Positions 6,889 to 37,586 of a stretch of 38,890 nt of DNA are shown piece by piece. Position numbers and translations under genes: made by a program. Under the pieces are notes generated by a model. It worked only from the letters and a program-made list of their open reading frames with translations, was not told the origin of the DNA and searched no databases. The first letter of the stretch is position 1. Each line of letters starts with the position of its first letter. Source of the DNA: a virus; IMG/VR virus record IMGVR_UViG_3300031111_000019, positions 1-38,890 of that record; one strand, 5' to 3'.

Positions 6889-7674
6889 TCATTGCTCTTG
6901 CTCCAGACACGCAGGCATCCTTACCTTCATCCACTCCGCAGCTACATCGATCAGATATCGGTATTCAGCTATGTCTTCATCAGTGTATCCGTTGGCCTTG
7001 CCTATCTCTTCATAGCGCTCCAGCCAGTGCTCTACTGAGTGTACTTCACATCCGATCGCGATTTCCGTCGGTGAGCACACACAAAGAGTGTGACGTGTTC
7101 CTTTTATCATCAATGGAACTTCGGACCAGATACCCCCGTGAATACTGACCTGGCCCGAAACCCGGACCTGGCCTAAAACAATGGCCGTTCCATAGATTCT
7201 GGCCCGGCCTAAAACAATGGCCACTCCGTAGACTTCGGCCTGGCCGTAGACGCGGGCCTGGTCGTAGACCTGGGCCGTGCCGCAGACCTGGGCATGGCCG
7301 GAGACCCTGGCCTGGCCGTAGACCTGGGCATGGCCGGAGACCCTGGCCTGGCCGTAGACTTGGGCCTGGCCGTAGACGCGGGCCTGGTCGTAGACCTGGG
7401 CCGTGCCGCAGACCTGGGCCTGGTCGTAGACTTCGGCACGTCCACGGACTTGGGCCTGGCCGTAGATTTCGGCACGTCCACGGACTTGGGCATGCCAATA
7501 GATCTCAGCCTGGTCATAGACCCCAGCCTGGTCACATACCAAAGCATCAGGGCCTACATAGGCCGTATCTGCAACGGTGGCGGTGTTTTCAATCCAGCCA
7601 CCACCGTTTGAATGTCGATGCCACGTGTCGGAGGTGGCGTGGGGGAACATCCGTTTCAGATCTTTGAAGTCCAT
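6889..7674 (-). CDS. Hexapeptide-repeat left-handed beta-helix protein
   Basis: 261 residues. Residues about 30-185 are built of six-residue repeats with a hydrophobic residue then a small residue (for example QVYGQARVSGHA, VYDQAQVCGTAQ), the pattern of left-handed beta-helix (hexapeptide transferase/YdcK-like) proteins, where 18 residues make one coil. The C-terminal about 75 residues (SVEHWLERYEEIGKANGY and on) are alpha-helical. No acyltransferase catalytic histidine or CoA-binding part is evident, so it is more likely a structural or binding scaffold than an enzyme. GAGGAG precedes the ATG at 7674, and its own promoter lies at 7695-7723. The coding DNA is highly repetitive (see the repeat entry). 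Function unknown. Confidence 0.82.
   Translation of the reverse strand: MDFKDLKRMFPHATSDTWHRHSNGGGWIENTATVADTAYVGPDALVCDQAGVYDQAEIYWHAQVRGRAEIYGQAQVRGRAEVYDQAQVCGTAQVYDQARVYGQAQVYGQARVSGHAQVYGQARVSGHAQVCGTAQVYDQARVYGQAEVYGVAIVLGRARIYGTAIVLGQVRVSGQVSIHGGIWSEVPLMIKGTRHTLCVCSPTEIAIGCEVHSVEHWLERYEEIGKANGYTDEDIAEYRYLIDVAAEWMKVRMPACLEQEQ
7237..7419 (-). repeat. 18-nt-period repeats inside the beta-helix gene
   Basis: The beta-helix gene contains repeats in multiples of 18 nt (six codons). A perfect 57-bp direct repeat occupies 7237-7293 and 7363-7419 (offset 126 = 7 x 18), with a 36-bp tandem duplication between them (about 7285-7320 and 7321-7356). Because the unit is a multiple of three, gain or loss of units by slippage or recombination keeps the frame, so coil number can vary. 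The same periodicity keeps other frames open over this stretch. Confidence 0.9.
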
Positions 7675-10601: not shown

Positions 10602-10661
10602 GTTTATGCGTCCTGGGGCTTGTGCTATGTCTTTTTTGCCGGTTTGGCTTTTGTTTTTTGC

Positions 10662-10689
10662 TTGCATGTTCCGCGCGGCGGCGTATACT
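10662..10689 (+). promoter_or_regulatory. Possible plus-strand promoter (TATACT) for the orphan membrane gene
   Basis: TATACT at 10684-10689 matches the -10 consensus 5 of 6; TTGCAT at 10662-10667 with a 16-nt spacer is a weak -35. The -10 lies within the 13-mer GGCGTATACTCAA (10680-10692), which recurs exactly at 11249-11261 ahead of the next gene; repetition of the same element ahead of two genes is the main support. Confidence 0.4.
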
Positions 10690-10701
10690 CAAAAATGCGG
10701 A

Positions 10702-10795
10702 ACGCCCAGAATTGATTCTGAGGCGATTACACGAGAGGGCTGGGTATACGGTATGGGATTTCGTAGCAAAGGCTTCAGAAGCCAATTCTGGGCGT
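10702..10795. repeat. Long inverted repeat around the start of the orphan gene
   Basis: ACGCCCAGAATTG (10702-10714) and CAATTCTGGGCGT (10783-10795) are a perfect 13-bp inverted repeat. The pairing continues inwards with TTCTGAGGC (10716-10724) against GCTTCAGAA (10772-10780), 8 of 9 complementary. The 47-nt middle contains the ATG at 10753. As RNA it would place the ribosome site and start codon in the loop of a stem of about 22 bp; as DNA it could be a binding or recombination site. Confidence 0.7.
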
Positions 10796-11238
10796 CTGGT
10801 GGGGTGTTTGTCTTGGTATGTGGGGGTGCGGTTTGTTCGGGTTTTGGCGTGGGGTATCTGTCAATGCATTGGCATGTCGAAGCCGAGGGCCCTCAGGTAG
10901 TACAAGGGGCGCCTATGCATGTGGATGTGTGTGCTTCTGGTGGCATTGTCGTGATGCCCACGGATGAGTCGGATCTGATGGCCGTCGATGCGCCCGTTGT
11001 GCTGCTTTGGCTGGTGGAGGATCGCAAGCCATCCGGACCTGAGGCGTGCGAGATCGGGACTCGGCTCGTTGATATGGGTCAGGGGTGTCTGCCTATTTGG
11101 CTGATGGATGTCACGGCTAGCTGTGCTGTGTACCCGGAGGTGATGCGGGGTAAAGTCGAGGCTTTTTTGGACAGCGTTACCGGTCAAGATATACCGGATA
11201 GACTAGGGGATGGGGATGGCATAGGCATAGGTCTATAG
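10753..11238 (+). CDS. Orphan protein with one N-terminal membrane segment
   Basis: Unrecognised. The open frame extends upstream to 10606, but I prefer the ATG at 10753 because a plausible -10 (10684-10689) lies downstream of 10606; the ribosome site is weak (GAGAGGG), so the start is uncertain. This gives 161 residues: a basic start (MGFRSKGFRSQFW), one hydrophobic segment (about 14-34, GGVFVLVCGGAVC), then an exported-looking domain rich in Val and Met with several cysteines, ending in a Gly/Asp-rich tail (GDGDGIGIGL). It looks like a membrane-anchored protein facing the periplasm. It lies between the two main operons, typical of accessory phage genes. Confidence 0.55.
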   Translation: MGFRSKGFRSQFWASGGVFVLVCGGAVCSGFGVGYLSMHWHVEAEGPQVVQGAPMHVDVCASGGIVVMPTDESDLMAVDAPVVLLWLVEDRKPSGPEACEIGTRLVDMGQGCLPIWLMDVTASCAVYPEVMRGKVEAFLDSVTGQDIPDRLGDGDGIGIGL

Positions 11239-13235: not shown

Positions 13236-14762
13236 ATGCCAGAAGTAATGCACAAGCTGAGCGAAATTGATGCAGAGCTCGCTCGGCGCCGATTGTCGTT
13301 TTTTGTCCAACAGGCTTGGCATGTACTGGAGCCGGCTACTCCTTTGATTTGGAGCTGGCACATGGATGCCATTTGTGAACACCTAGAGGCCGCTACCGAT
13401 GGGCGCATCACCAGGCTGCTGATTGCAATCCCCCCGGGGCATTGTAAGTCGCTTCTTGTGTCCGTGTTCTGGCCCGCATGGGTTTGGCTCAAAAGGCCAT
13501 CTTGGCGTGGGTTGTTTTCGTCCTACTCTGGGGATCTGTCCGTTAGGGACTCTGTTAGATGTCGGACGGTTATTCAGTCCGATTGGTACCAGGACACATT
13601 CGCGCCCGAGTGGAAGATGACATCGGATCAGAACGTTAAAAGCCGATTCGAGAACACGGCGCGCGGCGTGAGGCAATCTCTATCTGTCGGCGGCTTGGGG
13701 TCGGGTTTTCGTGGGGATTGTGTTGTCGTAGACGACCCATCCAACGTTGAAGAGTTCCCATCTGACATAGCATTGGCGGATGTTGTGTCTTGGTGGGACA
13801 AGCGCATGTCCTCTCGCTTCGACGATATGCGCACAGGTGTCCGCGTTTGCGTCATGCAACGGATTCATGAGCGGGACTTGATTGGCAGAATGTTGGAGAG
13901 GGGCGGATATGATTACCTGTGTCTACCGACGGAGTTTGATCCTGCCCGTCGTTGTGAGACATCTATCGGATTCAGAGATCCTAGGACGGAAGACGGTGAG
14001 CTCCTATTCCCCCAGCTATTCAACGAAGCCGTGATCGAGGAGGCTAAGAGAGACCTGGGAGATTACGCTTTTGCCGCACAACACAATCAAACGGCGGCGC
14101 CGGCAACCGGTGGAATCATCAAGCGCAATTGGATCCGGTTTTGGTGGGAGGGCAGTGAGCCTGAGCATTACGAGACAATGCAGGAGGATGGGGCGCTGTT
14201 TCGTCATGAGCAGATCCGGCTTGATAGAAACGCATTGCACAACCATATCCAGTCCTGGGATATGACTTTCAAGGGTGGACAAACTGCACAGGAGAAAGCC
14301 AGGGGCAAGCGGGTGGAGAGGGACTATGTGTGTGGGCAGGCATGGGCGGCGTGCGGGCAACGGCGTTTCTTGTTGGATCAATTGATCGGTCAGTTGTCCT
14401 TCACCCAAACCGTCGACGCTGTGCAGAGTTTTTCTGCGACGCATAGGAGGCACACCCTAAAGCTTGTCGAGGAGAAAGCGAACGGCGCGGCTGTGATGGA
14501 TCAGCTCACCGCTACCGTCGGTGGGTTTGAGCCTATCACACCGAAAGAATCAAAAGAGGCAAGGGCGCACGCAGTGTCGCATGACATAAGAGCGGGTTAC
14601 GTTTACTTGCCACATCCAAAACAACACCCGTGGGTGGAGGCCTTGATTCACGAGGTCTGCACATTCCCACGAGCAAAACACGATGATCAGTTGGATTCAC
14701 TCACACAAGCCTTGAAGTGGTATCGCGAGGCAGACATCAATCAGGTGTACGTGATACCCTAG
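13236..14762 (+). CDS. terL: Terminase large subunit (ATPase and nuclease)
   Basis: 508 residues from the ATG at 13236 (MPEVMHKLSEIDAEL), two bases after the preceding stop and 5 nt after AGGG; the frame is open further upstream to 13143 but that only covers the previous gene. The ATPase domain has a Walker A-like AIPPGHCKSLL (about 64-74) and Walker B VVVDDP (about 163-168). The C-terminal RNase H-fold nuclease shows Asp in SWDMTFKG (about 339), EEKANG, and DDQLDSLTQAL (about 483-493). It drives DNA into the prohead and makes the packaging cuts. The PPGH.KS Walker A variant is common in one branch of phage terminases. Confidence 0.95.
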   Translation: MPEVMHKLSEIDAELARRRLSFFVQQAWHVLEPATPLIWSWHMDAICEHLEAATDGRITRLLIAIPPGHCKSLLVSVFWPAWVWLKRPSWRGLFSSYSGDLSVRDSVRCRTVIQSDWYQDTFAPEWKMTSDQNVKSRFENTARGVRQSLSVGGLGSGFRGDCVVVDDPSNVEEFPSDIALADVVSWWDKRMSSRFDDMRTGVRVCVMQRIHERDLIGRMLERGGYDYLCLPTEFDPARRCETSIGFRDPRTEDGELLFPQLFNEAVIEEAKRDLGDYAFAAQHNQTAAPATGGIIKRNWIRFWWEGSEPEHYETMQEDGALFRHEQIRLDRNALHNHIQSWDMTFKGGQTAQEKARGKRVERDYVCGQAWAACGQRRFLLDQLIGQLSFTQTVDAVQSFSATHRRHTLKLVEEKANGAAVMDQLTATVGGFEPITPKESKEARAHAVSHDIRAGYVYLPHPKQHPWVEALIHEVCTFPRAKHDDQLDSLTQALKWYREADINQVYVIP

Positions 14763-14781: not shown

Positions 14782-16905
14782 ATGGGATTTTGGTCCAAGA
14801 TAAATCCGTTCAGCAAGGCCCCAGATGGGCAATCAATTTCCGCTGCCACCGTTGACGTGATAGCCGGTTCTTTGCGGAAGCGGCACAATAGGCGGAGTGT
14901 CCAGGAAGTGCTCGCAGCGATGGAAACCTCGCCGTGGTTTCGATCGGTTGTGTGGCGCATTTCGTACGCTGCGGCCATAGTGCCTTGGCGTATCTTTGCA
15001 GTCAAGTCGGCTAGAGGCACTCGAGACTTTGACCTCGGCCACGAGTACTGCAAGCACGTGGCGTTGCAGTCCGGGGAATCCCTCGAAGTGAGGTCTAGAA
15101 TCAAGGGCGCCTTGCAACAAGACGGACGACTTGTCGAGATTACAGACCACGTGTTCCTTGACCTGATGGCGGACCCGTGCAAGTCCTTGACCGGGGTTGA
15201 TTCAAGACTGCTTACGTTTGCTATGCTCAACGCGGTCGGGGAGGTCGGATGGGCGCTCGAGAAGAATGGGCAAGGAGCCCCCGTAGGGTATTGGCCCGTT
15301 CCGCCTCATTGGATTGTTGAAGTTCCGACGAACAACGATCCACACTACACGATCCAGATCCGCGGGGGGCGGAGAAAGATACCCGAGGACGAGTTTGTCC
15401 TGTACAAGAACCCAACCCTCGTGAATCCTTATGGTAGAGGCAGTGGCTTGGGGATGTCACTTGCGGATGAGCTTGAGACGGACGAGTACATTTCGAAATT
15501 CCAAAACACCTGGTTTCATAGCCGCGGGAAGCCCGACCTTGTCGTCACGGTTAAAGGCGCGACGGGGGGCGATCCGTCGCAGCTAGCGCGGGCCAAGGAG
15601 CAATTTGAAAACCAGTATCGTGATAGCACTCGCGGTGGCCGGTCCATGTGGGTACACGGTGACGTGTCTGTCAAGGAGCTGTCACAGAAACTTGTTGATC
15701 TCGATCTGGCTGCACAGCGGACTTGGATCAAGGATCTTGCTCGCGAGGTTTTCGGTGCGCCACCCGAAGTGATGGGCGACGTGAAGGATTCGAATCGAGC
15801 GACAGTGCAGGAGGCAATGGCTATCTTGGCTATGCTGTCCACGATCCCTCAGCTCGAGAGGATGCGGGCGCAGATCCAGCAGAAGCTGATCCCGTTGTAT
15901 GATGATAGGCTTGTGGTTGACTATTGGTCACCTCTTCCAGACAATAAAGAGTTCGCGCTTCGCGCACTCCAGGCTATGCCGTGGGCAGCAACACGGGGGG
16001 AGATCCGGCGTATGCAGGGGCTTGAAGACAGGGGCCAGTATGACAATGTGCATATGCTTCCGATGAACCTGATCGAGGTTGAAGGGCCGGCCCTACCTAA
16101 AGAGCACAAGGGCGTAACCATCCACAAGCTTGTGCAAAAGACGCCCTTGACTGAGCTCGAAATCGAAGAAGTGCTTGCCTCCCTGGTGCCGGATCACCTG
16201 GACTATGAGCTTACTCCCGAGGTCAAGCGAATCATCGAAGCTTGGGGGGCTAAGACATCCGCTGAGCTCGGGCTTGCGCCGTCGTTTGATTTGCTCAACC
16301 CGAGAGTCGTCGAATACATCGACGGATTCAGTGGGCAAAAAGTCGTCGGTATCAATGACACCAGCAAGCGTCTATTGCGAAGCACGCTTAGGGCTGGTGT
16401 GATAGGTGGGGAGGGAGCAGAGGACATTGCTAGGCGAGTGTCTAACGCGTTTGATTCGTTTGCGGATACTCGCGCCCTGGCCATAGCCAGGACCGAGGTT
16501 ACATCTGCAGCTAACTTTGGCACGTACATGGCGCACTCCGCAAGCGGCGTGGTGGAGGAGCGGGAGTGGATCGCGACTATGGACGGACTAGCAAGGGATA
16601 CTCACGCCGGGCTTGATGGGGCCAAGGTGGGGATAGATGAATCCTTTACAAGCTCCAGTGGAGCTAGGACCAGATATCCAGGGGGTTTCGGAATAGCTGC
16701 GGAAGATGTCAATTGTCGATGCATCACTGTGGCCGTCATCAAAGACCCTGAGAAGTCAATGACCCATGAGGATAGACTGGCTGTGTGGAAATCCTTTGTT
16801 GCAGAGACAGACAAGGATGAAGAGCGCGTGGCTTCCGCAGCACGGCGCGCGTTTCGGGCGCAGGAGGAGAAAGTGCTTGCGAAGCTGCGCGAGGTGATGG
16901 GATGA
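14782..16905 (+). CDS. Portal protein with C-terminal MuF (SPP1 gp7-like) domain
   Basis: 707 residues, much longer than a usual HK97-type portal (about 400-500). Residues about 1-470 are the portal, the dodecameric ring at the packaging vertex (SPWFRSVVWRISYAAAIVPW, ANAL-type dimer region, GAPPEVMGDVKDSNRATVQEAM split as two motifs). Residues about 560-650 match the Phage_Mu_F/SPP1 gp7 minor head domain: ARTEV near 564, EWIATMDGLARDTHAGLDG, then NCRC near 643-646. MuF is normally a separate gene just downstream; here it is fused in frame with no stop. GAGGA lies upstream of the ATG. The stop overlaps the next ATG. Confidence 0.9.
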   Translation: MGFWSKINPFSKAPDGQSISAATVDVIAGSLRKRHNRRSVQEVLAAMETSPWFRSVVWRISYAAAIVPWRIFAVKSARGTRDFDLGHEYCKHVALQSGESLEVRSRIKGALQQDGRLVEITDHVFLDLMADPCKSLTGVDSRLLTFAMLNAVGEVGWALEKNGQGAPVGYWPVPPHWIVEVPTNNDPHYTIQIRGGRRKIPEDEFVLYKNPTLVNPYGRGSGLGMSLADELETDEYISKFQNTWFHSRGKPDLVVTVKGATGGDPSQLARAKEQFENQYRDSTRGGRSMWVHGDVSVKELSQKLVDLDLAAQRTWIKDLAREVFGAPPEVMGDVKDSNRATVQEAMAILAMLSTIPQLERMRAQIQQKLIPLYDDRLVVDYWSPLPDNKEFALRALQAMPWAATRGEIRRMQGLEDRGQYDNVHMLPMNLIEVEGPALPKEHKGVTIHKLVQKTPLTELEIEEVLASLVPDHLDYELTPEVKRIIEAWGAKTSAELGLAPSFDLLNPRVVEYIDGFSGQKVVGINDTSKRLLRSTLRAGVIGGEGAEDIARRVSNAFDSFADTRALAIARTEVTSAANFGTYMAHSASGVVEEREWIATMDGLARDTHAGLDGAKVGIDESFTSSSGARTRYPGGFGIAAEDVNCRCITVAVIKDPEKSMTHEDRLAVWKSFVAETDKDEERVASAARRAFRAQEEKVLAKLREVMG

Positions 16906-27854: not shown

Positions 27855-29509
27855 TGGCTTTTCTCGAGATCAACGGGTGGACCATCCCGGTTGCGTCTTG
27901 CAAGCAAAAGCATCAGCTATTGGGCGGGCGTGGTCGCGCATATGACGGCACGCCACAGATGCAAGACAGGGGTCGCAAGCGGATATTCGAGTGCAAGACG
28001 CCACCCCTGACAGAGCAGGCGAGGGAAGCAATCATCGGTTTGATCAACGGAGACGGCTACGTTTTCCCCTACTCGGCGGACTTGTATTCGCACAAGGGAT
28101 GGGGGCCTAAGACCGCTGCCGTGACCGCTACCGTGACCGAATCAACCGCAGCAGACGGAGATCGCGTTGCGGCTATGGATTATCGATTCTCCGCAACCCC
28201 GGCCGCTCCTCAGCCCTACTCCCCTACCAGATCTGGACAGCTGGAAGTAAACCCGGCTACGACGAATCTGTTGGGGGCAGATTCCAGGGACGCCGAAAAC
28301 GCGACGACGGGGTACTCGACGGTCGGTGGATCGTCTCTAGCTGCAGACACTACCAACTATTGGCAAGGTACGAAATCCGTTAAAGTGACCACATCGAGTT
28401 CAGGGCAAGGGGTCCAAACCACGGCTATCGATCCCGGTGCGGGGTCCGCAAACAAAGTCTACGTGGGGTCTGTTTACGTCAAGCCCCTGGATAGCATGCC
28501 GTTTAAAGATCTTCGCATCACCATGGTAGACGGGACGAATGCTGCCACCAATACCGTCAAGACAGCAATGTCAGGATATGACGGGACGTGGGTAAGGCTT
28601 ACGGGGTATATCACGATAGGTGGGGTTGATTGTCGATCCCTCACAATGCAGGTAGTCACTGACGACGCATCCACGCCGGATTTTTGTTGTGATGGATTCC
28701 AGATCGAGGAGAGTGTCTATACGGATCATCCGGAAGCGCGTTTTGCAACGGCATGGGTTGACGGCACGCGGGCAGCTGGCGACCTGGCCTATGACCTGTC
28801 TTTTTGCAATACCGTGGTTGACTGGTCTATAGGGGCGTGGTTCTACGTTGGCCCACAGTGGTTGAGCGAGTTGAACCCGACAACGCTTATCAAATGCGTT
28901 GGTACGGATGATACGGAAATTCACATAGAGAGATCTACGGGGGTGAACGATAGGCTTAGTTTCACAATACAAGACGGGGACGGGACCTCCTACACCCTGT
29001 CAAGTGACATAGTTTTTGGCGGCTACAAGTGGAACTTCATCGGTGTAAGCTACCGTCGAGATCCTGAAACAGGCGAGGACCATATGGCCCTTGTGCAAGC
29101 GTCCGCCGACGATGAAGAATATGTAACAGAAGCTGCATCTAGTGTTGACTTTGCTTTTGATGCATTAGATACTATGTATGTAGGGCATAATAACGAATCG
29201 GAATACTGGCTAGGCCCAATCGGCAATTTAATGTTTTTCCCATTCGCGGTACCTGAAGATATGTGGACCGGTATCTGGTCAGACCTTGCGGGCGAGGGCA
29301 CCGGGGGGTCGGATGACAGGGACTTGCCCCAATGGCCCAGAAAGTATGTTAGGGGCGACGCCATGATCAATTATTCGTCGGGGGATAACCTTGCATACGC
29401 TGCCCTGTTTGAAGGGCAAGTTACCGGCGTTGACATGATGGTAGGGCGGGTTAGTGGTGCTATGCGTACTAACCTGGGGGCTGTAAGCTTCACGCTCGAG
29501 GAAGTATGA
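27854..29509 (+). CDS. Distal tail protein with inserted carbohydrate-binding/LamG-like region
   Basis: 551 residues starting at GTG, four bases after AGGAGGTG, overlapping the tape measure stop. Residues about 1-90 (MAFLEINGWTIPVASCKQ; RKRIFECKTPPLTEQA) and the end (YAALFEGQVTGVDMMVGRVSG) look like one tail protein, the kind placed right after the tape measure. Between them are two beta-sandwich-like parts: one about 130-300 (ADTTNYWQGTKSVKVTTSSS; CCDGFQIEES, typical of carbohydrate-binding modules) and one about 310-460 (SIGAWFYVG; YVGHNNESEYWLGPIGNLMFF, LamG-like). It may bind host surface sugars. Its stop overlaps the next ATG. Confidence 0.72.
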   Translation: MAFLEINGWTIPVASCKQKHQLLGGRGRAYDGTPQMQDRGRKRIFECKTPPLTEQAREAIIGLINGDGYVFPYSADLYSHKGWGPKTAAVTATVTESTAADGDRVAAMDYRFSATPAAPQPYSPTRSGQLEVNPATTNLLGADSRDAENATTGYSTVGGSSLAADTTNYWQGTKSVKVTTSSSGQGVQTTAIDPGAGSANKVYVGSVYVKPLDSMPFKDLRITMVDGTNAATNTVKTAMSGYDGTWVRLTGYITIGGVDCRSLTMQVVTDDASTPDFCCDGFQIEESVYTDHPEARFATAWVDGTRAAGDLAYDLSFCNTVVDWSIGAWFYVGPQWLSELNPTTLIKCVGTDDTEIHIERSTGVNDRLSFTIQDGDGTSYTLSSDIVFGGYKWNFIGVSYRRDPETGEDHMALVQASADDEEYVTEAASSVDFAFDALDTMYVGHNNESEYWLGPIGNLMFFPFAVPEDMWTGIWSDLAGEGTGGSDDRDLPQWPRKYVRGDAMINYSSGDNLAYAALFEGQVTGVDMMVGRVSGAMRTNLGAVSFTLEEV

Positions 29510-32226
29510 GATCCACGACGACCCAGAGCCAAGCCGCTGCGCTTGCTAGCCTCAAGGATTTGGCTACTCACGTGCGTGTCAGCGTGGATGACGGCACGGG
29601 CTCGTACACTGATTTGACGGACCTAGAGGGGTACAACTGGATCCATAGTGTGACCTACAACGAAAAGGCGGGGCAACCCACGGTCACTGCAACCGTCAAG
29701 CTGACTCGGGAGAATCACAAGCTAAGTCTCTCCCCCTTTGTGGATGGATCGAAGTTAAACGCTTCGGGGACTGTTGTAGACATAGGTCGAAAGATCAAAA
29801 TCGAAACGGCCGTGCTCCCGGCGGGTAAAGGCCCAGCAACGAATGAATGGGAGGAAATATTCCGCGGATACATTGAAGATATTGAGTGGGAACGTAACCC
29901 CATGGTCCTCAAGTGCCAGGACTTGGGGTCAGAACTTGTGGCATGGTTCATTGAAAACCAGTATGTCTATGCTACCACTGATAATGCTTTGGATGAAGTT
30001 GTTCAAGACATCGTCGATGACAACAATCCCTCGGTCCAGGTTGTGGCGGCGGAGTTTACATGGAATGGTAATACAACGGTTACGGCTACCGGTGGAGACA
30101 CAAGCGAGCTATCAGTCGATGACTACATAGGGTACACACAAGGGCCCTATTTCCAGATTGACTCCATCAATCCGAATGTGTCTGTAACTATCCTGAATCC
30201 GTTTAGCCGAACGATACCATCAGGGGATGGGGCGGGGTCAACTTTATTGATAGAGGAAGATGATAGAATCTCATTACAGATAGATGGCGCCGCCCCCGCA
30301 TGGGCCATACACGAGTACTACCAGACAAAGGATCGACTCCTTCCCGCTATCCGACGCATAGCCCAACAGATAGGCTATGAGATCAATTACAGGTGGAACA
30401 GTAGCACAGAAGCCTTTGAGCTTACACTGTGGGAGCCGGATAGGTCAGCATCCACGCCGGATGTGACGATAGGCCCGGGGCAGTATAAGGACGTCAAAAA
30501 ACTGAACATGAGCCGCAGCAAGATTCGGAACAAGATCCGAGTGACGGCTGAGGTTTCCGGGGTTGTCAAATCCGTAGTGAGAGAAGACGCCGCGAGTCAA
30601 GCGAAGTATGGTGTAAGATACATGGAGGCCACACGAAAGTCGACAGACCAGATCGATACGCAGGCCGAGCTCCAGGATTTTGGTGACATCATATTGGCAG
30701 ATCTCAAGGACCCCGGCGCGGATTTGAGTGTCACCATCCCGTACCGATGGGACCTAGAAATCGGGGACTATGTCCGCTTCTCGGCGGACAACGTGCGGTT
30801 TGATACGGATCAGGATTTTGGGGTTGTGTCTCTATCTCACACCCTACCGAATAGGGGCGAACCTACCACTACAATAGGGGTGCGCGGGAAGCCCTCCGGC
30901 GGCGTTAATCGTTGGCTTGAGCTCGAAGGCATGCCAGGCGTTGCCCCTCCCGTAGACCTGAAATCAGATAATGCGGCGGAGAACGTTGCGGCATCTGCAG
31001 GGGCTAGCAGTGTCACCATTACATATGATGATCCCAGATCTATGTCCCCTCCAATAAATGACTGGGCCACTACTTTGTGTTATTTGCGGTACGATGCAGA
31101 CCCGGGAGACCCGCCGGGTGCTTCGTACTTGGTTGCTGCCGGGAAACAAACGCGATTCGAAATAGGTGGATTGATCCCCGGTGGGGAGTATCAAGGGCGG
31201 CTTGTTATCATGGACGAAGGTGGAAACATTGCAGCGACATCCACCGTTGTTGTTCAAGCCACACAAAAAGTCACAGCATACCATATGGACGAGGACAGCA
31301 CAAGAGCGGTACGACTACCAAACGGTGATTTTGGAACCCAGACACTCGATGTAACCACAAACCCGCCGGATTCATGGAGTATGGGGACTGCCGGGTGGGG
31401 CGCAGCGGACGATGTCTATATAGACACAACGGAGCATCAGACGGGGTCTAGATCGATTGTGTTCCAGGACGCGGGCGGAGATATGTGGTCAGACTATTTT
31501 CCCGTCAATGAGGGAGAGATACTGGCCTTTGAAATGGTTCTCAAGCTGAGTGCAAATTCGGTAGGGGGGACATTCCGAAATTACGTTAGGTATTACACAA
31601 ACGCAAGGCCAACAATACTAACCACAACAAGTCTCCAGAATTTAGATCTCAGTGCACTTTCCACAGGTACGTGGCTGCGGTATGTTGATAGGTTGTGTGT
31701 TCCGACAAACGCACGTTACGCCAAGATCAGATTGTCTCACGTGAAAGGTGCAACAACCCACGATGTTTTTGTAGATCGGCACAACGTAGTTAAAGATTCA
31801 GATGCGGTAAATGTCGAACGCAATTCAACACAGAGTATCAACAGTGGTACATGGACCACAATCCTATTCAATAACGTCATACAGGACTACTCGAGTTCTT
31901 ACAACTCAGGGACTGGGTACTATTATGGCCCAGCAATAGGGGCTGCAACGTGGCTCTTTTCTGCCAGCTCTGAGATAGCCTCACTTGGGGCCGGAAAAGA
32001 AGTGCAGCTCAGGATTGCTGTTACTCAAAAGGGATCGACTCGATACTATTATGGGACAGTGTCAACACCTTCGAGCATAGGCAATACCTGTGTGCATGCA
32101 ACAACGGGCCCCATAGATATTGTTGCCGCGGATGCAATTGTTGTTCAAATAAAACATAATCATGGATCGGCTTTGAATATTCCTGCCAATGGTGCATTTT
32201 TTCGGGGTGTTCAAGGTGGATGGTAG
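29506..32226 (+). CDS. Tail hub/baseplate protein with fibronectin III-like and sugar-binding-like parts
   Basis: 906 residues. The first about 470 residues (MRSTTTQSQAAALASLKDLA; YNEKAGQPTVTATVKLTREN; YIEDIEWERNPMVLKCQDLG; then YQTKDRLLPAIRRIAQQIGY) look like a phage tail hub. Residues about 478-583 resemble a fibronectin III domain (SSVTITYDDPRS; RFEIGGLIPGGEYQGRLVI). Residues about 595-765 (GDFGTQTLDVTTNPPDSW; SRSIVFQDAGGDMWSDYFPV) resemble a carbohydrate-binding sandwich. The last about 140 residues are Tyr/Ser-rich (SSSYNSGTGYYYGPAIG). Likely at the tail tip, contacting the host; the domain names are by eye. Confidence 0.72.
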   Translation: MRSTTTQSQAAALASLKDLATHVRVSVDDGTGSYTDLTDLEGYNWIHSVTYNEKAGQPTVTATVKLTRENHKLSLSPFVDGSKLNASGTVVDIGRKIKIETAVLPAGKGPATNEWEEIFRGYIEDIEWERNPMVLKCQDLGSELVAWFIENQYVYATTDNALDEVVQDIVDDNNPSVQVVAAEFTWNGNTTVTATGGDTSELSVDDYIGYTQGPYFQIDSINPNVSVTILNPFSRTIPSGDGAGSTLLIEEDDRISLQIDGAAPAWAIHEYYQTKDRLLPAIRRIAQQIGYEINYRWNSSTEAFELTLWEPDRSASTPDVTIGPGQYKDVKKLNMSRSKIRNKIRVTAEVSGVVKSVVREDAASQAKYGVRYMEATRKSTDQIDTQAELQDFGDIILADLKDPGADLSVTIPYRWDLEIGDYVRFSADNVRFDTDQDFGVVSLSHTLPNRGEPTTTIGVRGKPSGGVNRWLELEGMPGVAPPVDLKSDNAAENVAASAGASSVTITYDDPRSMSPPINDWATTLCYLRYDADPGDPPGASYLVAAGKQTRFEIGGLIPGGEYQGRLVIMDEGGNIAATSTVVVQATQKVTAYHMDEDSTRAVRLPNGDFGTQTLDVTTNPPDSWSMGTAGWGAADDVYIDTTEHQTGSRSIVFQDAGGDMWSDYFPVNEGEILAFEMVLKLSANSVGGTFRNYVRYYTNARPTILTTTSLQNLDLSALSTGTWLRYVDRLCVPTNARYAKIRLSHVKGATTHDVFVDRHNVVKDSDAVNVERNSTQSINSGTWTTILFNNVIQDYSSSYNSGTGYYYGPAIGAATWLFSASSEIASLGAGKEVQLRIAVTQKGSTRYYYGTVSTPSSIGNTCVHATTGPIDIVAADAIVVQIKHNHGSALNIPANGAFFRGVQGGW

Positions 32227-32268: not shown

Positions 32269-33906
32269 ATGAAGAAGACTAGAAACATTTTGGCCCTGGC
32301 GGCCGTCACATTCATCGGGATGTTGTTGGGGGGTATCGTAATCGACAACGACGCATGGGCGATCCCCAAGTCGATGCGGAACTACATGTTCAAGGTTCTG
32401 CGTGGTGAGAATGGGGGGACGATTGAGAATGCGACCGACGGTGTATTCACGATTTCTGACGCCAGCGAAGATCTATCCGTCACCATTACCTCAAACGACA
32501 TCGCGTTGTCCTCTTCTACAGGGGTCACGGAACTAGACCTAGGTACTATCAACCTAGAAACGGACGAGATTGACGCCAACGGAACCGGGACGTTGACCTT
32601 GTTGGTGAATGGGGAAAGCCTGGTTTTCACTGGCAGCACCGATGACATGGCTGTTACATCAGGTACAGGTGTAACAGAAATCGATTTCGGAACGATCAAT
32701 ATCGAGACAGATGAAATTGACGCGAATAGTACTGGTACCCTGACCCTTTTGGTGAATGGTGAAAGCCTGGTTTTCACGGGCAGTACTGACGACATGGCCC
32801 TCAGCTCCGGGACAGGTGTTGCGGAACTAGACCTAGGTACTATCAATCTAGAAACGGACGAGATTGATGCTAGCGGGACAGGTACGTTGACCGTTCTTGT
32901 GAACGGCGAAAGCTTGATCTTCACGGGCAGCACCAACGACATGGCTGTTACATCCGGTACGGGAGTCACGGAGGTAGACTTCGGAGAGATCAACCTGGAA
33001 ACAGATGAGATTGACGCCAACGGGACTGGGACGTTGACCCTGCTAGTAAACAGTGAAGACCTTGTTTTCACGGGGGCTACCGATGACATGGCTATTAGCT
33101 CTAGCACGGGAGTTGCCGAGATAGACTTCGGAGAGATCAACCTTGAAACGGATGAGATTGATGCTAACGGGACCGGGACGTTGACCCTGCTAGTAAACAG
33201 TGAAGACCTTGTTTTCACGGGGGCTACCGATGACATGGCTATTAGCTCTAGCACTGGCGTTTCCGAAATAGACTTTGGAACAATCAACCTTGAAACGGAT
33301 GAGATAGACGCTAGTGGGACTGGGACGTTGACTGTTTTGGTGAATGGCGAAGATGTGGTGTATACGGGCAGCACGAACAAGCTTAGTCTATCTTCCGGCA
33401 CAGGTGTTGTAACCCACGACTATGGGTCCATCGGCGTGAAGACAGCGACCCCGTTGTTCCTCCTGGAAAAGCAACACTTCTGTGGCCAGGGCGCCAACGG
33501 CTCTACGACTTCCTATATCGGCCCGGTCCTGAAGTCTGCTGCTGCTGACGAGACAACCTACGTATTCGGCGCGGCCGGTTGTGATGGACTAGACAGCACC
33601 ACAGAAGCAACGGCAGATGCACCTTTGGACACACGAGGTGATCTCAAGGTTGTCGGTATGGCGTGCGTCATCGACGATGGCGGGACGGATGATACATACG
33701 TGTTCCAGCTTCGCTCGGCGGAGGCCGATGTCAACGGGGTAACGTGCAGCATCGTGCTTGACGGATCTGGCGACGATACTTGCACCGTTATCCTTGACGC
33801 CCCGCAAACGGTGTCCAGTGGTGCTACCCTAGCCGTTAGCCAAGCTGGCACCGATGACGACTGCTCGGGTTGCGACACCGAGTGCTTTGTATATTACACC
33901 CGATAG
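32269..33906 (+). CDS. Repeat protein with N-terminal signal peptide
   Basis: 545 residues with AAGGAG before the ATG. Residues 1-31 are a Sec-type signal: basic MKKTRN, hydrophobic stretch 7-24, and a cleavage-like AWA after residue 31. From about residue 70 to 365, a 49-residue unit is repeated about six and a half times (core TLTLLVNGESLVFTGSTDD, then GTGV.E.D.G.INLETDEID). The C-terminal about 150 residues form a cysteine-containing domain (DDDCSGCDTECFVYYTR at the end). The repeat pattern, strands alternating with turns, is adhesin/fibre-like. Placed among tail genes, it could be a fibre, but the export signal argues it is secreted or envelope-displayed. Confidence 0.78.
   Translation: MKKTRNILALAAVTFIGMLLGGIVIDNDAWAIPKSMRNYMFKVLRGENGGTIENATDGVFTISDASEDLSVTITSNDIALSSSTGVTELDLGTINLETDEIDANGTGTLTLLVNGESLVFTGSTDDMAVTSGTGVTEIDFGTINIETDEIDANSTGTLTLLVNGESLVFTGSTDDMALSSGTGVAELDLGTINLETDEIDASGTGTLTVLVNGESLIFTGSTNDMAVTSGTGVTEVDFGEINLETDEIDANGTGTLTLLVNSEDLVFTGATDDMAISSSTGVAEIDFGEINLETDEIDANGTGTLTLLVNSEDLVFTGATDDMAISSSTGVSEIDFGTINLETDEIDASGTGTLTVLVNGEDVVYTGSTNKLSLSSGTGVVTHDYGSIGVKTATPLFLLEKQHFCGQGANGSTTSYIGPVLKSAAADETTYVFGAAGCDGLDSTTEATADAPLDTRGDLKVVGMACVIDDGGTDDTYVFQLRSAEADVNGVTCSIVLDGSGDDTCTVILDAPQTVSSGATLAVSQAGTDDDCSGCDTECFVYYTR
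33028..33254 (+). repeat. 147-bp tandem repeats in the signal-peptide repeat gene
   Basis: The 49-residue protein repeats are encoded by 147-bp DNA repeats. Two neighbouring copies share a perfect 80-bp segment: 33028-33107 and 33175-33254. The other copies are more diverged. The identity points to recent duplication or gene conversion, and copy number may vary between relatives. Confidence 0.9.
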
Positions 33907-33915
33907 GAGGAGAAA

Positions 33916-34437
33916 ATGTCTAGCACCTTTAAAGCGGTCTTGATTAGTGGGCTGGTGTTAGGTCTGGGCGGCACTGCCCGGGCCGCAGCGCCCAGTGATA
34001 GTCAAATTCGTAGATGCGAATCGGTGCCCGTTGTATTCGATAAGGTAGCTCTAGATGGGGCGGCCGGTACACGTACCAAAACTATTTCAAATTTGTCTGG
34101 CTATGATCTGCTGCGTATCACGGCAAAATACACGTGGGTAGATGACGGTGATTTGACATTCACGATTACCGTCTTATCCGCACAAAGCAGTGACACGGCA
34201 ACAGAAGCGTTGACCGGATATTCAACTCCAACATACGCCACGTGCACGGGATCTGTGTGCACGTTGGCGGATCGTGGTACGTACAAGTATACCGGTTTGA
34301 CTGCGGCTAAAACTTTTGATATGAGCTTTCGGTTACAGGGTGAGACAACCATCAAAATCGTTGCCGAGGAATCCACCGCGGCATCTGGTGAGTTTCTTAC
34401 CCTTACCGCCGAGAAGTGTGTGGCGGGGGGTAACTAA
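33916..34437 (+). CDS. Small secreted-type protein
   Basis: 173 residues with a strong AGGAGG site. Residues 1-23 form a signal peptide: MSSTFK, hydrophobic VLISGLVLGLGG, and ARA cleavage site before AAPSD. The mature part is a compact beta-rich domain (GYDLLRITAKYTWVDDGDLT; TFDMSFRLQGETTIKIVAEE) with Cys pairs that could form disulfides. It looks like an exported or surface protein. It lies between the repeat protein and the beta-helix protein, in the same direction, all three with export-like N-termini. Function unknown. Confidence 0.72.
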   Translation: MSSTFKAVLISGLVLGLGGTARAAAPSDSQIRRCESVPVVFDKVALDGAAGTRTKTISNLSGYDLLRITAKYTWVDDGDLTFTITVLSAQSSDTATEALTGYSTPTYATCTGSVCTLADRGTYKYTGLTAAKTFDMSFRLQGETTIKIVAEESTAASGEFLTLTAEKCVAGGN

Positions 34438-34438
34438 A

Positions 34439-36688
34439 ATGTTTGCGTGCATCGGGCTTGTGTCGTTGTTAGGTTTCGCACCGCTGAACGAATATGCTGG
34501 TGTAGAAGCTACCTTTGAGATCTATGTCAACCCAACCACCGGCAATGACGCTAACCCGGGCACGGAAGCGTCCCCGGTGGCTACTCTCGGCAAGGCAGGT
34601 TTGTTGATTCCGTCAGAGGGGTCTGGTATTATCCACCTCTCTGCAGGCAACCACGCTTTGACGGATTACGCAAGCGAATCAATCTCCCAGCGAACAGTGT
34701 TAAAGGCCAAGGGGTATTTGATTGTACAGGGCACAACGTCGGTAGAGGATACCTTCACCATAGACTCTGTAAGCGAGAATGTTTTGACGGCTTCCGGATC
34801 TCCTGGGTGGAGTGTTGATGAGCACGTCGGCCGCTTTGTGAGGCAAGTTGTTTCGGCAACCGTAACGAGATACCATTGGATCTTGTCCAATACCTCTGAC
34901 ACACTGACAGTCTCGAAAACGCCTGCATCCCTCGGCGGGTCCGGGGAGCTTCCGGGGTCCGGGGACATGGACATTGAATCGATCCAGTCCTGGATTATTC
35001 CATCTGCAACTAACCCGACAAAAATATTCAACCGGCTGTACGTCGGCGGAAACATGCGTTTCCTCGAAGTGGGGTTTGATGGGACCACCGGAAACACCGG
35101 CCCAACATCCATCGATGGCGGCGGGGTTATCTCCTTCTACGCTTGCAAGTTCCAGGACTGGTCTTCGAGGGCCATTTCGCTGTCCAATTGCGAGACATCT
35201 GTCAACTACACGCTGTTCGATACGGTAGGCACGGCTATTGAATCCTACAACGGCCGCCTCACCTACGGGATAGACAACGTGCTCAAGGATGTAACCACAG
35301 GTGTAATCTTATACAACGGGTATATGTCGTCCACATCCGTATCATCCGTGTGGGCGGACACGGTAACGACCGTTTTCCATCTCCGAGATCATGCAACGTT
35401 TTGGGAATCCCACAAGCGCGTCCATTTAACATCTGTCACAACGTATGCCCAACTGGAGTTCGGCGGTAATTTTGCCAGGAATGATAACGCCGCCGTTTTG
35501 ATTTGGTCGGGGACAGAGCAGCCCGACACGGTAATCTCAATGGTAGAAGGGGACAACAGCGCGATCCTCTACGACACAGCTAACAGCACAATGACAGGGA
35601 CATCAGAATATGTGGACATGGGTGGTGTGACGACTTCGCATACTGACTACGTCGCATCCCCATCCTTGATGGACGCCCATTTCAACAAGATTGCGGACGT
35701 ATCGGCCGCGGCCATTTCTGTTAGTGGACGTTTGAGTAATGCCCCCGACGAAGATACCATTGCAGATAGCGGTGACGGGAACCCGGCAACTCATACACTC
35801 ACACCGACATCGAGCGTTGTAGAGTTGACCTGTAGTGACTCCGACACGTGTGACATCACGATGGGGGAGTCGGGAATTTCACAAGGGACGACCGTTGCCA
35901 TCTTCAACGTTGGCAGTAACGTGATCGACTTTGCAGATTCTGCTGGGGTTCTCGAACTCAACAACGGAAAAGCCTATGCGATGGGCGCGGAAGAATACCT
36001 GTCCCTGTACTACAACGGATCTGCATGGGTTGAGAAGGGAAGGAGTGTGGAGGTATTTGCGGCGGATGGCAAGGCGTTGAAAGCAATAGACTTGGCAAAT
36101 AGTTATATTACAGATTCGGTTACCAGTGCATATGTATACCAAATTAGTCTGGATTCGGATGGGTTGAGACTGAGAAATACAAATAAAATTTCGTTCTATG
36201 GGTACGGCAGACTAGCTATGCCAGACGCTAATGGTGTATTCTACCTACAAAATGCTGGCAATACTAGGCATCTCTGCATAGACTTCACGGCAGACGGCGT
36301 CACCGAGTTCAAATCCGGAAGCACGTGCACGGCTATCACAGCCCTGAAGTGGGGGGGCTTGGCCATCAATGCTCCGGATTCTGACACCATTGCAGATACC
36401 GGAACAGGCGACCCTGCAACGCATACCCTCACACCGACATCAAGCGTGGTGCAATTGACCTGCAATGACGCTGACACGTGTGACATCACGATGGGTGAGA
36501 CCGGAATGGTTGCGGGGACTCGTGTACTCATTGTCAGCATGGGGTCCAATACTATTGACTTTGCAGATTCAGCAGGGGTCCTCGAGCTCGACGGTGGAGC
36601 AGCGTTTGCCATGACTGACCAGGATTCGTTGGAGCTGTACTACACGGGTGCAGAGTGGATTGAATTGCGACGAATGGATATAGACTAG
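34439..36688 (+). CDS. Parallel beta-helix, tail-spike-like protein with duplicated C-terminal module
   Basis: 749 residues from the ATG at 34439, two bases after the preceding stop; the frame is open upstream to 34340 but that covers the end of the previous gene. The N-terminus MFACIGLVSLLGFAPL is hydrophobic, signal-like but without basic residues. Then FEIYVNPTTGNDANPGTEAS with TLGKAG matches the DUF1565/pectate-lyase-like start of beta-helix spikes; residues about 45-420 are beta-helix-like. Two copies of an about 105-residue module (about 433-536 and 643-749; ATHTLTPTSSVV and DTCDITMGE) end the protein. It may degrade or bind host surface glycans. No catalytic residues were identified. 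Confidence 0.72.
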   Translation: MFACIGLVSLLGFAPLNEYAGVEATFEIYVNPTTGNDANPGTEASPVATLGKAGLLIPSEGSGIIHLSAGNHALTDYASESISQRTVLKAKGYLIVQGTTSVEDTFTIDSVSENVLTASGSPGWSVDEHVGRFVRQVVSATVTRYHWILSNTSDTLTVSKTPASLGGSGELPGSGDMDIESIQSWIIPSATNPTKIFNRLYVGGNMRFLEVGFDGTTGNTGPTSIDGGGVISFYACKFQDWSSRAISLSNCETSVNYTLFDTVGTAIESYNGRLTYGIDNVLKDVTTGVILYNGYMSSTSVSSVWADTVTTVFHLRDHATFWESHKRVHLTSVTTYAQLEFGGNFARNDNAAVLIWSGTEQPDTVISMVEGDNSAILYDTANSTMTGTSEYVDMGGVTTSHTDYVASPSLMDAHFNKIADVSAAAISVSGRLSNAPDEDTIADSGDGNPATHTLTPTSSVVELTCSDSDTCDITMGESGISQGTTVAIFNVGSNVIDFADSAGVLELNNGKAYAMGAEEYLSLYYNGSAWVEKGRSVEVFAADGKALKAIDLANSYITDSVTSAYVYQISLDSDGLRLRNTNKISFYGYGRLAMPDANGVFYLQNAGNTRHLCIDFTADGVTEFKSGSTCTAITALKWGGLAINAPDSDTIADTGTGDPATHTLTPTSSVVQLTCNDADTCDITMGETGMVAGTRVLIVSMGSNTIDFADSAGVLELDGGAAFAMTDQDSLELYYTGAEWIELRRMDID

Positions 36689-36697
36689 GAGCATGAT

Positions 36698-36988
36698 ATG
36701 CCCCCCGCAGACGGATGGCAAGAACATCAGTTGCTCGTATTGAGCACGATCCAGAGCCTAGACAAAAAGACTGACAAGCTGGTAGACAGTCACAACGACC
36801 TGCGCGCCGAGGTAGCCAGTCTACGCGAAGCATCATCCACTACACAGCGGGAGGTAACGGACCTCCGGAGATCCGTTGTGGATGTCAAAGAAAAGAATGC
36901 CGGCCTTTCGGTAAAGGCGGGTGTTTGGACTTTGCTAGCCGGGGCCATCCCCACTGCGGGGGCCGCACTCTACCTGCTGTTGAGGTAG
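36698..36988 (+). CDS. Coiled-coil protein with C-terminal membrane anchor, lysis cassette
   Basis: 96 residues; GGAG 7 nt upstream. Residues about 15-75 are heptad-like (STIQSLDKKTDKLVDSHNDL; RREVTDLRRSVVDVKEK), and residues about 76-96 form a C-terminal TM segment (VWTLLAGAIPTAGAALYLLL). The build resembles XhlA-type hemolysin/lysis proteins that sit next to holin and endolysin. It is first in the lysis cluster, 4 nt ahead of the amidase. Confidence 0.7.
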   Translation: MPPADGWQEHQLLVLSTIQSLDKKTDKLVDSHNDLRAEVASLREASSTTQREVTDLRRSVVDVKEKNAGLSVKAGVWTLLAGAIPTAGAALYLLLR

Positions 36989-36992
36989 TCAA

Positions 36993-37586
36993 ATGATTAT
37001 TGGCACCGATGCCGGACACGGGGGGTCCAATTTTGGGACTTTCGACCCCCCGTTATCCACTCAAGAGGCTAGGCTCGTAGAAAAAAACATTACCCTTATC
37101 TTGGACAAACTCCTGGCAGCCGCGCTCTCAGACGCCCCCTTTGAGCATATCAGGACGCGTCGCTCCGATGTCTACCTGAGCCAGCGGAGCAGATCAATTC
37201 TGACAAAAATTCAAGGTTGCAATTTTGTGCTTTCCATGCACGTGAATCACAACCCAGATCCACAATGTCAAGGGGCGGAAGTATATTACAACCCGTCCAA
37301 CCCCAGGACATCCGAGATCAGCAAGGGTATTTTCCAACCGGCTCTTGCAAAAGTCTTCAGGAAGTGTAGACTAGTATCTGTAGATCTATCGAGAGGAGAG
37401 TGGATTCGGAACGCAAGAAACATCGTCATGATCCACGACGCGGACACCGTGTTGCTCGAGCTCGGGTATAGACAAAACCCCCGTGACCGAGCGCTTTTGA
37501 TGTCCAGAGAAGGGCAAGACAAAATCGTAACCGCAATGAAAGAGTCACTGCTACGTGTAGCAGATTACTATGGAGACCAACCATGA
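36993..37586 (+). CDS. N-acetylmuramoyl-L-alanine amidase endolysin (Amidase_3)
   Basis: 197 residues. The zinc-amidase motifs are visible: DAGHGG with His9, Glu30 in VEKNITL, His83 in SMHVNHN, and a catalytic Glu near 156 in LLELGY. It cuts the amide bond between N-acetylmuramic acid and L-alanine of peptidoglycan. There is no separate cell-wall-binding domain and no signal peptide, so release needs the holin. GAGG lies before the ATG; the stop overlaps the holin start. Confidence 0.93.
   Translation: MIIGTDAGHGGSNFGTFDPPLSTQEARLVEKNITLILDKLLAAALSDAPFEHIRTRRSDVYLSQRSRSILTKIQGCNFVLSMHVNHNPDPQCQGAEVYYNPSNPRTSEISKGIFQPALAKVFRKCRLVSVDLSRGEWIRNARNIVMIHDADTVLLELGYRQNPRDRALLMSREGQDKIVTAMKESLLRVADYYGDQP

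Follow-up and report, generated by a model that had tools for sequence, protein, structure and literature searches.

Why should three consecutive genes in the tail region of a phage encode proteins that start like secreted ones, when tail fibres and spikes are taken to stay in the cytoplasm and to be assembled ahead of lysis? The question is raised by the virus record IMGVR_UViG_3300031111_000019, whose whole length of 38,890 bases was analysed (hereafter the window) and in which positions 32,269 to 36,688 encode three proteins, here named P1, P2 and P3. An earlier reading of the sequence (the original prediction) gave them 545, 173 and 749 residues and signal-peptide-like N-termini; coordinates and lengths were confirmed, the 749 residues counting from an ATG start. 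Our preferred reading, to which we give a probability of about one half, is that P1 to P3 are an accessory (moron-like) cassette, expressed late, whose fibre-like products leave the cytoplasm through Sec and target glycans outside it. Recurrence of comparable genes in unrelated viruses and environmental prophages suggests that some phages export tail-like, sugar-targeting proteins rather than using them in the usual particle assembly. The features of the three genes are as follows.

32269..33906, plus strand: P1, 545 residues, with a signal peptide, about six repeats of 49 residues and a Cys-containing C-terminal domain; Shine-Dalgarno sequence aaggag
32269..32361, plus strand: predicted signal peptide of P1, 31 residues, MKKTRNILALAAVTFIGMLLGGIVIDNDAWA^IPK, cut after DAWA; score 5.62, reached by 0 of 5,000 shuffles
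32518..33353, plus strand: tandem repeat within P1, unit of 147 nucleotides, 5.7 copies
33916..34437, plus strand: P2, 173 residues, with a signal peptide and a beta-rich domain with 4 Cys; all-beta model of low confidence, pLDDT 59
33916..33984, plus strand: predicted signal peptide of P2, 23 residues, MSSTFKAVLISGLVLGLGGTARA^AAP, cut after TARA; score 4.97; Shine-Dalgarno sequence ggagg
34439..36688, plus strand: P3, 749 residues from ATG, with a weak signal peptide, a DUF1565-like (beta-helix type) start and two Phage_depo_C domains
34439..34510, plus strand: predicted signal peptide of P3 from ATG, 24 residues, cut GVEA^TFE; alternative GTG start at 34418; scores 3.67 (ATG) and 4.47 (GTG)
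35738..36046, plus strand: Phage_depo_C-like copy 1 of P3, residues 434-536 approximately, Cys pair CSDSDTC
36368..36688, plus strand: Phage_depo_C-like copy 2 of P3, residues 644-749 approximately, Cys pair CNDADTC; modelled as a beta-sandwich

The signal-peptide prediction that had been proposed as a check was run with a home-made rule, which scores the charge of the n-region, the h-region and the AxA cleavage site and was calibrated on 15 well-known E. coli signal peptides (range 4.45-5.78, 15 of 15 passing). P1 and P2, with their AWA and ARA sites, were clearly positive. P3 was borderline, so that the claim of a signal-like start stood for two of the proteins and weakly for the third. The mechanical open reading frame of P3 begins at GTG 34340; from the in-frame GTG 34418 the protein reads MWRGVTKMFACIG... 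and gains an Arg and a Lys. Good Shine-Dalgarno sequences precede both P1 and P2, and a run of G precedes the ATG of P3. Shuffles of the whole protein matched the observed score in 14 of 5,000 cases for P2 and in 152 of 5,000 for P3 (19 of 5,000 from the GTG). As background we scored genes of at least 100 residues from 119 other phage loci, where 10 of 1,134 (0.9%) reached 4.4 and no two of them were adjacent; at that rate two neighbouring positives would occur among 45 genes with a chance of about 0.3%. From these rates P1 and P2 are clear, P3 is plausible, and the run is not a matter of chance. Charged n-region, h-region, AxA site and true start were thus all found in P1 and P2, for which the sequence evidence for Sec-type signal peptides is strong, and a signal peptide on P3 is plausible. 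The background survey also contained a signal-peptide tail-fibre-like protein (L120:4022-5731, MTNRMVGSVLTLVTLLFSAEA^AVAQTYTQMQWGMNKG), whose best matches in named phages were tail fibre proteins.

The domains of P3 point to glycans. The tailspike depolymerase domain Phage_depo_C (PF25692) was matched in two stretches with E 1.1e-8 and 35.9 bits against a curated cut-off of 25. Directly after the predicted cut, P3 opens with a DUF1565-like YVxPxTGNDxNPGT. The DUF1565 match has E = 0.01, below the curated cut-off, and the structure model of P3 a pLDDT of 39. With a match under the cut-off and a low-confidence model, the right-handed beta-helix that the original prediction gave to P3 is probable and not proven; the C-terminal Phage_depo_C match is significant. 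Structure predictions were usable only for the last domain of P3, and the top structural match of the modelled part was a tailspike depolymerase (24qj, E 6e-6), the overall model being poor. The repeat for which P1 had been named is real, as the 147-nucleotide unit shows, and all 8 Cys of P1 sit in its C-terminal region, residues 405-539. Pfam matches of P1 (Sarcoglycan_1 and others) were below cut-off and discarded, and carbohydrate-binding module matches of the P2 model were set aside, the model being too poor.

A relative of P3 was found in a bacterial chromosome. In one Nitrospirota genome (L166:8129-9787) a protein combines a signal peptide, a pectate-lyase-like beta-helix and the P3 C-terminal domain (pairwise E 1e-18), and adjoins genes for a GDP-mannose dehydratase, an epimerase and a glycosyltransferase. 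For P3, the earlier suggestion of glycan-active proteins thus gains support both from Phage_depo_C and from this secreted relative on a chromosome, with its sugar-nucleotide and glycosyltransferase neighbours. The domain profile was positive in 1 of 396 Nitrospirota genomes and in 0 of 395 Desulfobacterota-type genomes, a search that had no positive control; an earlier scan of GTDB contigs did not find the domain. A parallel is WceF of Pantoea stewartii (PMC7949094), an enzyme that is secreted, resembles tailspikes and is encoded in a biofilm cluster. By its description it resembles P3-type proteins in being a secreted, tailspike-like beta-helix that acts on extracellular polysaccharide, and it differs in being bacterial, in its Tat signal and in belonging to a biofilm cluster. 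The chromosomal relative, with this analogy, suggests that phage fibres and the glycan enzymes which hosts secrete have exchanged parts.

With the P3 C-terminal domain as the sole query, three IMG/VR contigs were found (L002, L003 and L005), and this domain is all that they have in common with P3. In all three the domain lies on a protein with a signal-peptide-type N-terminus, with at least one adjacent signal-peptide protein, among structural genes. These contigs were fetched through the P3 domain, so their signal peptides are no random sample, and they are to be compared with the 0.9% background. L002 (contig G001) has two consecutive signal-peptide genes (MVKKILSLIVSIFLICSFAFA and MLKKCLLVICILLLCAGFVFA), and L003 (G002) has two to three (MKNLKLITIIVGILLIVFSMSVSA and MNKKLIIAIITPLLFLGAYYYSNA), of which MKNLKLITIIVGILLIVFSMSVSA was read by eye, the gene caller having picked a later start. 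L005 (G003) has three in a row, a tailspike, a lipoprotein with its lipobox Cys (gene at 7286) and the domain protein. The same podovirus-like contig holds two more lipoprotein-type genes between portal and scaffold (L144:14008-15795, genes at 14008 and 14941), with similar N-termini and the lipoboxes FGGC and FIAC. The TCNDADTC-type Cys pair of the domain is invariant in alignment A1 and present in L005, and has one extra residue in the chromosomal relative. Searches of IMG/VR gave no relatives of P1, P2 or the tail hub-type protein that precedes them, and searches of INPHARED none of P1, P3 or the hub. Two side observations were made on these contigs. Radical-SAM-like and glycosyltransferase-like genes, judged by eye, lie in the capsid-tail interval of G001 (L002:2152-4314), and an extremely Gly/Ser/Tyr-rich repeat protein (GSGYGDGSGSGYG) is encoded near one end of the L005 contig (L005:12486-12956), apparent further copies being found at the other end (L144:1-847).

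A pattern made from the N-terminal start of P3 led to a provirus (L136, contig G004) in which four signal-peptide genes stand in a row, in the interval from the capsid to the head-completion genes. Two of the four have matches of the Beta_helix type, one is fibre-like and contains ADGTSQTTA, and one is small. The Beta_helix match of G004_3 (E 2.9e-5) is just under the cut-off, and the protein aligned to the P3 N-terminus over 33 residues. This prophage also occurs in a chromosomal contig of 1.9 Mb, from a genome belonging to the same class as Candidatus Brocadia sapporoensis. Its capsid protein recovered six further prophages, and the homologue in L150 matches the PHROG major head protein. Signal-peptide genes numbered two in L148, two in L150, one plus two in L149, one in L145 and none in L146 and L147; sorted by host, Brocadia sapporoensis had 1, three Nitrospirota 2, 3 and 2, and two Desulfobacterota-type hosts 0. 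Such genes were thus held by five of the seven capsid-sharing prophages (from Brocadia-class planctomycetes and Nitrospirota). Between conserved flanks their place varies: some precede the capsid gene, some follow it directly or with one gene in between, and some prophages lack them. In these shifting positions they behave like an accessory cassette. This variable placement, one mark of morons, was seen in related prophages, no close kin of the window having been found. L149 also has an Mtd-type receptor-binding protein without a signal peptide, so the signal-peptide genes there are extra to a normal receptor-binding protein. Near them an RVT_1 reverse transcriptase adjoins the Mtd-type protein (mtd_2nd; L149:11916-14795), and the pair is probably a diversity-generating retroelement. 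A faecal record (L162) with signal-peptide beta-helix genes resembles a bacterial chromosome and was set aside as unverified. That unrelated viruses repeatedly carry fibre-like genes with signal peptides in consecutive order agrees with the original prediction that these are not conventional fibres.

In the window, P1, P2 and P3 are contiguous in a late operon and flanked by a tail hub-type gene and lysis genes:

29506..32226, plus strand: tail hub-type protein preceding P1, without a signal peptide; weak matches to the tail families phrog_1887 and YQBQ-like
36698..37586, plus strand: lysis genes following P3, a coiled-coil/transmembrane protein (start 36698) and an N-acetylmuramoyl-L-alanine amidase (amidase_3, 36993-37586; PF01520, 7.8e-25) without a signal peptide

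The gaps from the hub through P1, P2 and P3 to the coiled-coil gene are 42, 9, 1 and 9 nucleotides, and around P1-P3 sequences resembling promoters or terminators did not exceed chance. From this tight position without signals of their own, the three genes should be transcribed together with the virion and lysis genes. The promoter and terminator of a classical moron are missing around P1-P3, hence the cassette is called only moron-like.

A course of events can be proposed in which translation would start at the signal peptides, as the sequences of P1 and P2 support, and the host Sec pathway would carry P1 to P3 over the inner membrane, with the signal peptides being cut at the AxA sites. The proteins would fold outside the cytoplasm, where Cys pairs could form disulphides. 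Judged from the domains, P3 would be a secreted tailspike-like protein that binds or degrades glycans, and P1 and P2 its repeat and beta-rich adhesin-like companions. Because they would be made together with virion and lysis proteins, they most likely act around lysis, with the envelope glycans of the dying cell and of cells nearby as their targets. Polysaccharide would then be loosened for release and spread, and receptors might be masked. At least in some such phages the exported proteins would supplement, not replace, cytoplasmic receptor-binding proteins.

Several points weigh against this reading. The case for P1-P3 is built wholly on sequence, and signal peptides were graded by the home-made rule instead of SignalP. 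The signal peptide of P3 is weak, its ATG version MFACIGLVSLLGFAPLNEYAGVEA^TFE being uncharged. P1 and P2 lack detectable relatives in the searches given above (IMG/VR for both, INPHARED for P1). Glycan activity is read from domains, with no catalytic residues identified, and P1-P3 would also need a way through the outer membrane. Their overall Cys content is no higher than that of other phage genes. Richness in Cys was not accepted as a sign that proves export, since other genes of the window are equally rich, so the disulphide argument is confined to the conserved Cys pair.

The alternative that survives best, which we hold to be somewhat unlikely for P1-P3, is that they are true tail spikes or fibres whose maturation takes place in the periplasm and which are joined to virions upon lysis. 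Its evidence comes from a matched control on the head-binding domain that podovirus tailspikes with YEAGTxTP share (Pam1, PBR31, Shewanella X14, Thalassomonas BA3). Ten such domains from nine records of named phages all begin at the initiator Met. Among 120 IMG/VR loci with the motif, a set with many near-identical phages and hence fewer independent lineages, two have clear signal peptides ahead of it (the L005 contig and L065), L106 is borderline and one is truncated; the remaining loci start some 20-32 residues before the motif with no convincing signal peptide. The motif was sought as a DNA pattern, the head-binding alignment being too diverse for scanning. The P3-type N-terminal domain of MW202608 likewise starts at Met without a signal peptide. 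The statement of the original prediction that ordinary tail fibres lack such signals is borne out by these homologues, and the signal peptide is a rare addition to proteins that normally have none. In L005 and L065 it amounts to about 20 extra residues compared with ordinary tailspikes, which start at the domain. In L005 the canonical domain follows directly behind it, in a protein that matches the PHROG tail spike family (1.3e-21) and is encoded where tailspikes usually are, behind the ejection proteins, an order shared with Pam1, PBR31 and Pan3; in L065 it is joined to a tail-fibre protein (5.8e-40). P22 tailspikes are able to join particles in vitro. Judged from these spikes, a place on the virion could still be within reach for at least some proteins of this kind. 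The L005 relative has retained a domain for virion attachment after its signal peptide, so the absence of P1-P3 from the virion is no more than an assumption. As a wider statement we offer, with more doubt than confidence, that some phages pass genuine spikes or fibres through Sec, fold and cross-link them in the periplasm and mount them at or after lysis, which would be a second, extracytoplasmic route of adhesin assembly. P1-P3 themselves, in contrast to the YEAGTxTP tailspikes, have no head-binding domain, and Pfam and PHROGs gave no recognised virion-attachment domain in any of them. The prophage cassette moreover lies among head genes, outside the fibre slot, and L149 has its separate Mtd-type protein.

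It is improbable that the hydrophobic N-termini are uncleaved virion anchors or docking segments instead of export signals. The P3 stretch from ATG, which has no positive n-region, would suit such a role, but P1, P2 and most relatives show a charged n-region, h-region and AxA site, several relatives have a lipobox Cys, and the homologous domains of ordinary phages attach to virions without any such segment. We give equally little credence to superinfection exclusion by exported receptor binders that block the host surface in the manner of T5 Llp or lambda-type surface morons. T5 Llp, a phage-encoded lipoprotein with an export signal, sets the precedent (PMC9586334), and the signal peptides, lipoboxes and adhesin-like folds would fit. 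The superinfection block named in the original prediction nevertheless received no direct support: the genes lie in a late operon with virion and lysis genes, which is late for exclusion, the proteins are large multi-domain fibre-like ones and no small lipoprotein, and no relative of a known exclusion protein (Llp, Lom or Cor type) was found. Chance or an artefact (start codons called wrongly, contaminating host DNA or chimeric assemblies), for which the ambiguous start of P3 and the many metagenome-assembled or viral contigs could speak, is very improbable given the Shine-Dalgarno sequences of P1 and P2, the reappearance of the arrangement across some ten records from various types of phage, and the chromosomally integrated case in the 1.9 Mb contig.

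Exported phage proteins and tailspikes are both known already. Lambda Lom and Bor are exported phage envelope proteins. Like these and T5 Llp, P1-P3 would be phage-encoded envelope proteins with export signals, but the known ones, lipoproteins of small size or proteins of the outer membrane, do not resemble tail fibres and do not form gene runs inside a virion operon. Signal-peptide and SAR endolysins are late phage proteins using Sec (reviewed in PMC6116005), and differ from P1-P3 in being cell-wall hydrolases for lysis. Tailspike depolymerases share the C-terminal beta-sandwich domain, present twice in P3; the best structural match, from the low-confidence model, was Acinetobacter phage Solidus gp83 (PDB 24qj). 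P3 differs from them by the signal peptide at its N-terminus and by the lack of any recognised domain for virion binding. What appears new is the signal-peptide fibre-like cassette inside a virion operon: signal peptides on tail fibres or on such cassettes were undescribed in the literature searched, outside which most subscription journals lie. If the reading holds, some phages of poorly cultured bacteria would remodel the host exterior late in infection, or assemble tail parts outside the cytoplasm, and secreted proteins that bind or degrade polysaccharides could naturally be sought among such genes.

The remainder of the window is arranged with genes for DNA polymerase A, helicase-like proteins and nucleases on the minus strand, followed on the plus strand by terminase, portal/minor head, capsid and tail genes. 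An open reading frame of 210 residues at 10606-11238 has an N-terminus that scores 4.75 as a signal peptide; it has no family matches and its start is uncertain. The 707-residue protein at 14782-16905 is matched by both the portal and the minor capsid/head morphogenesis proteins of Pseudoalteromonas phage Pq0, and is possibly a portal-minor head fusion.

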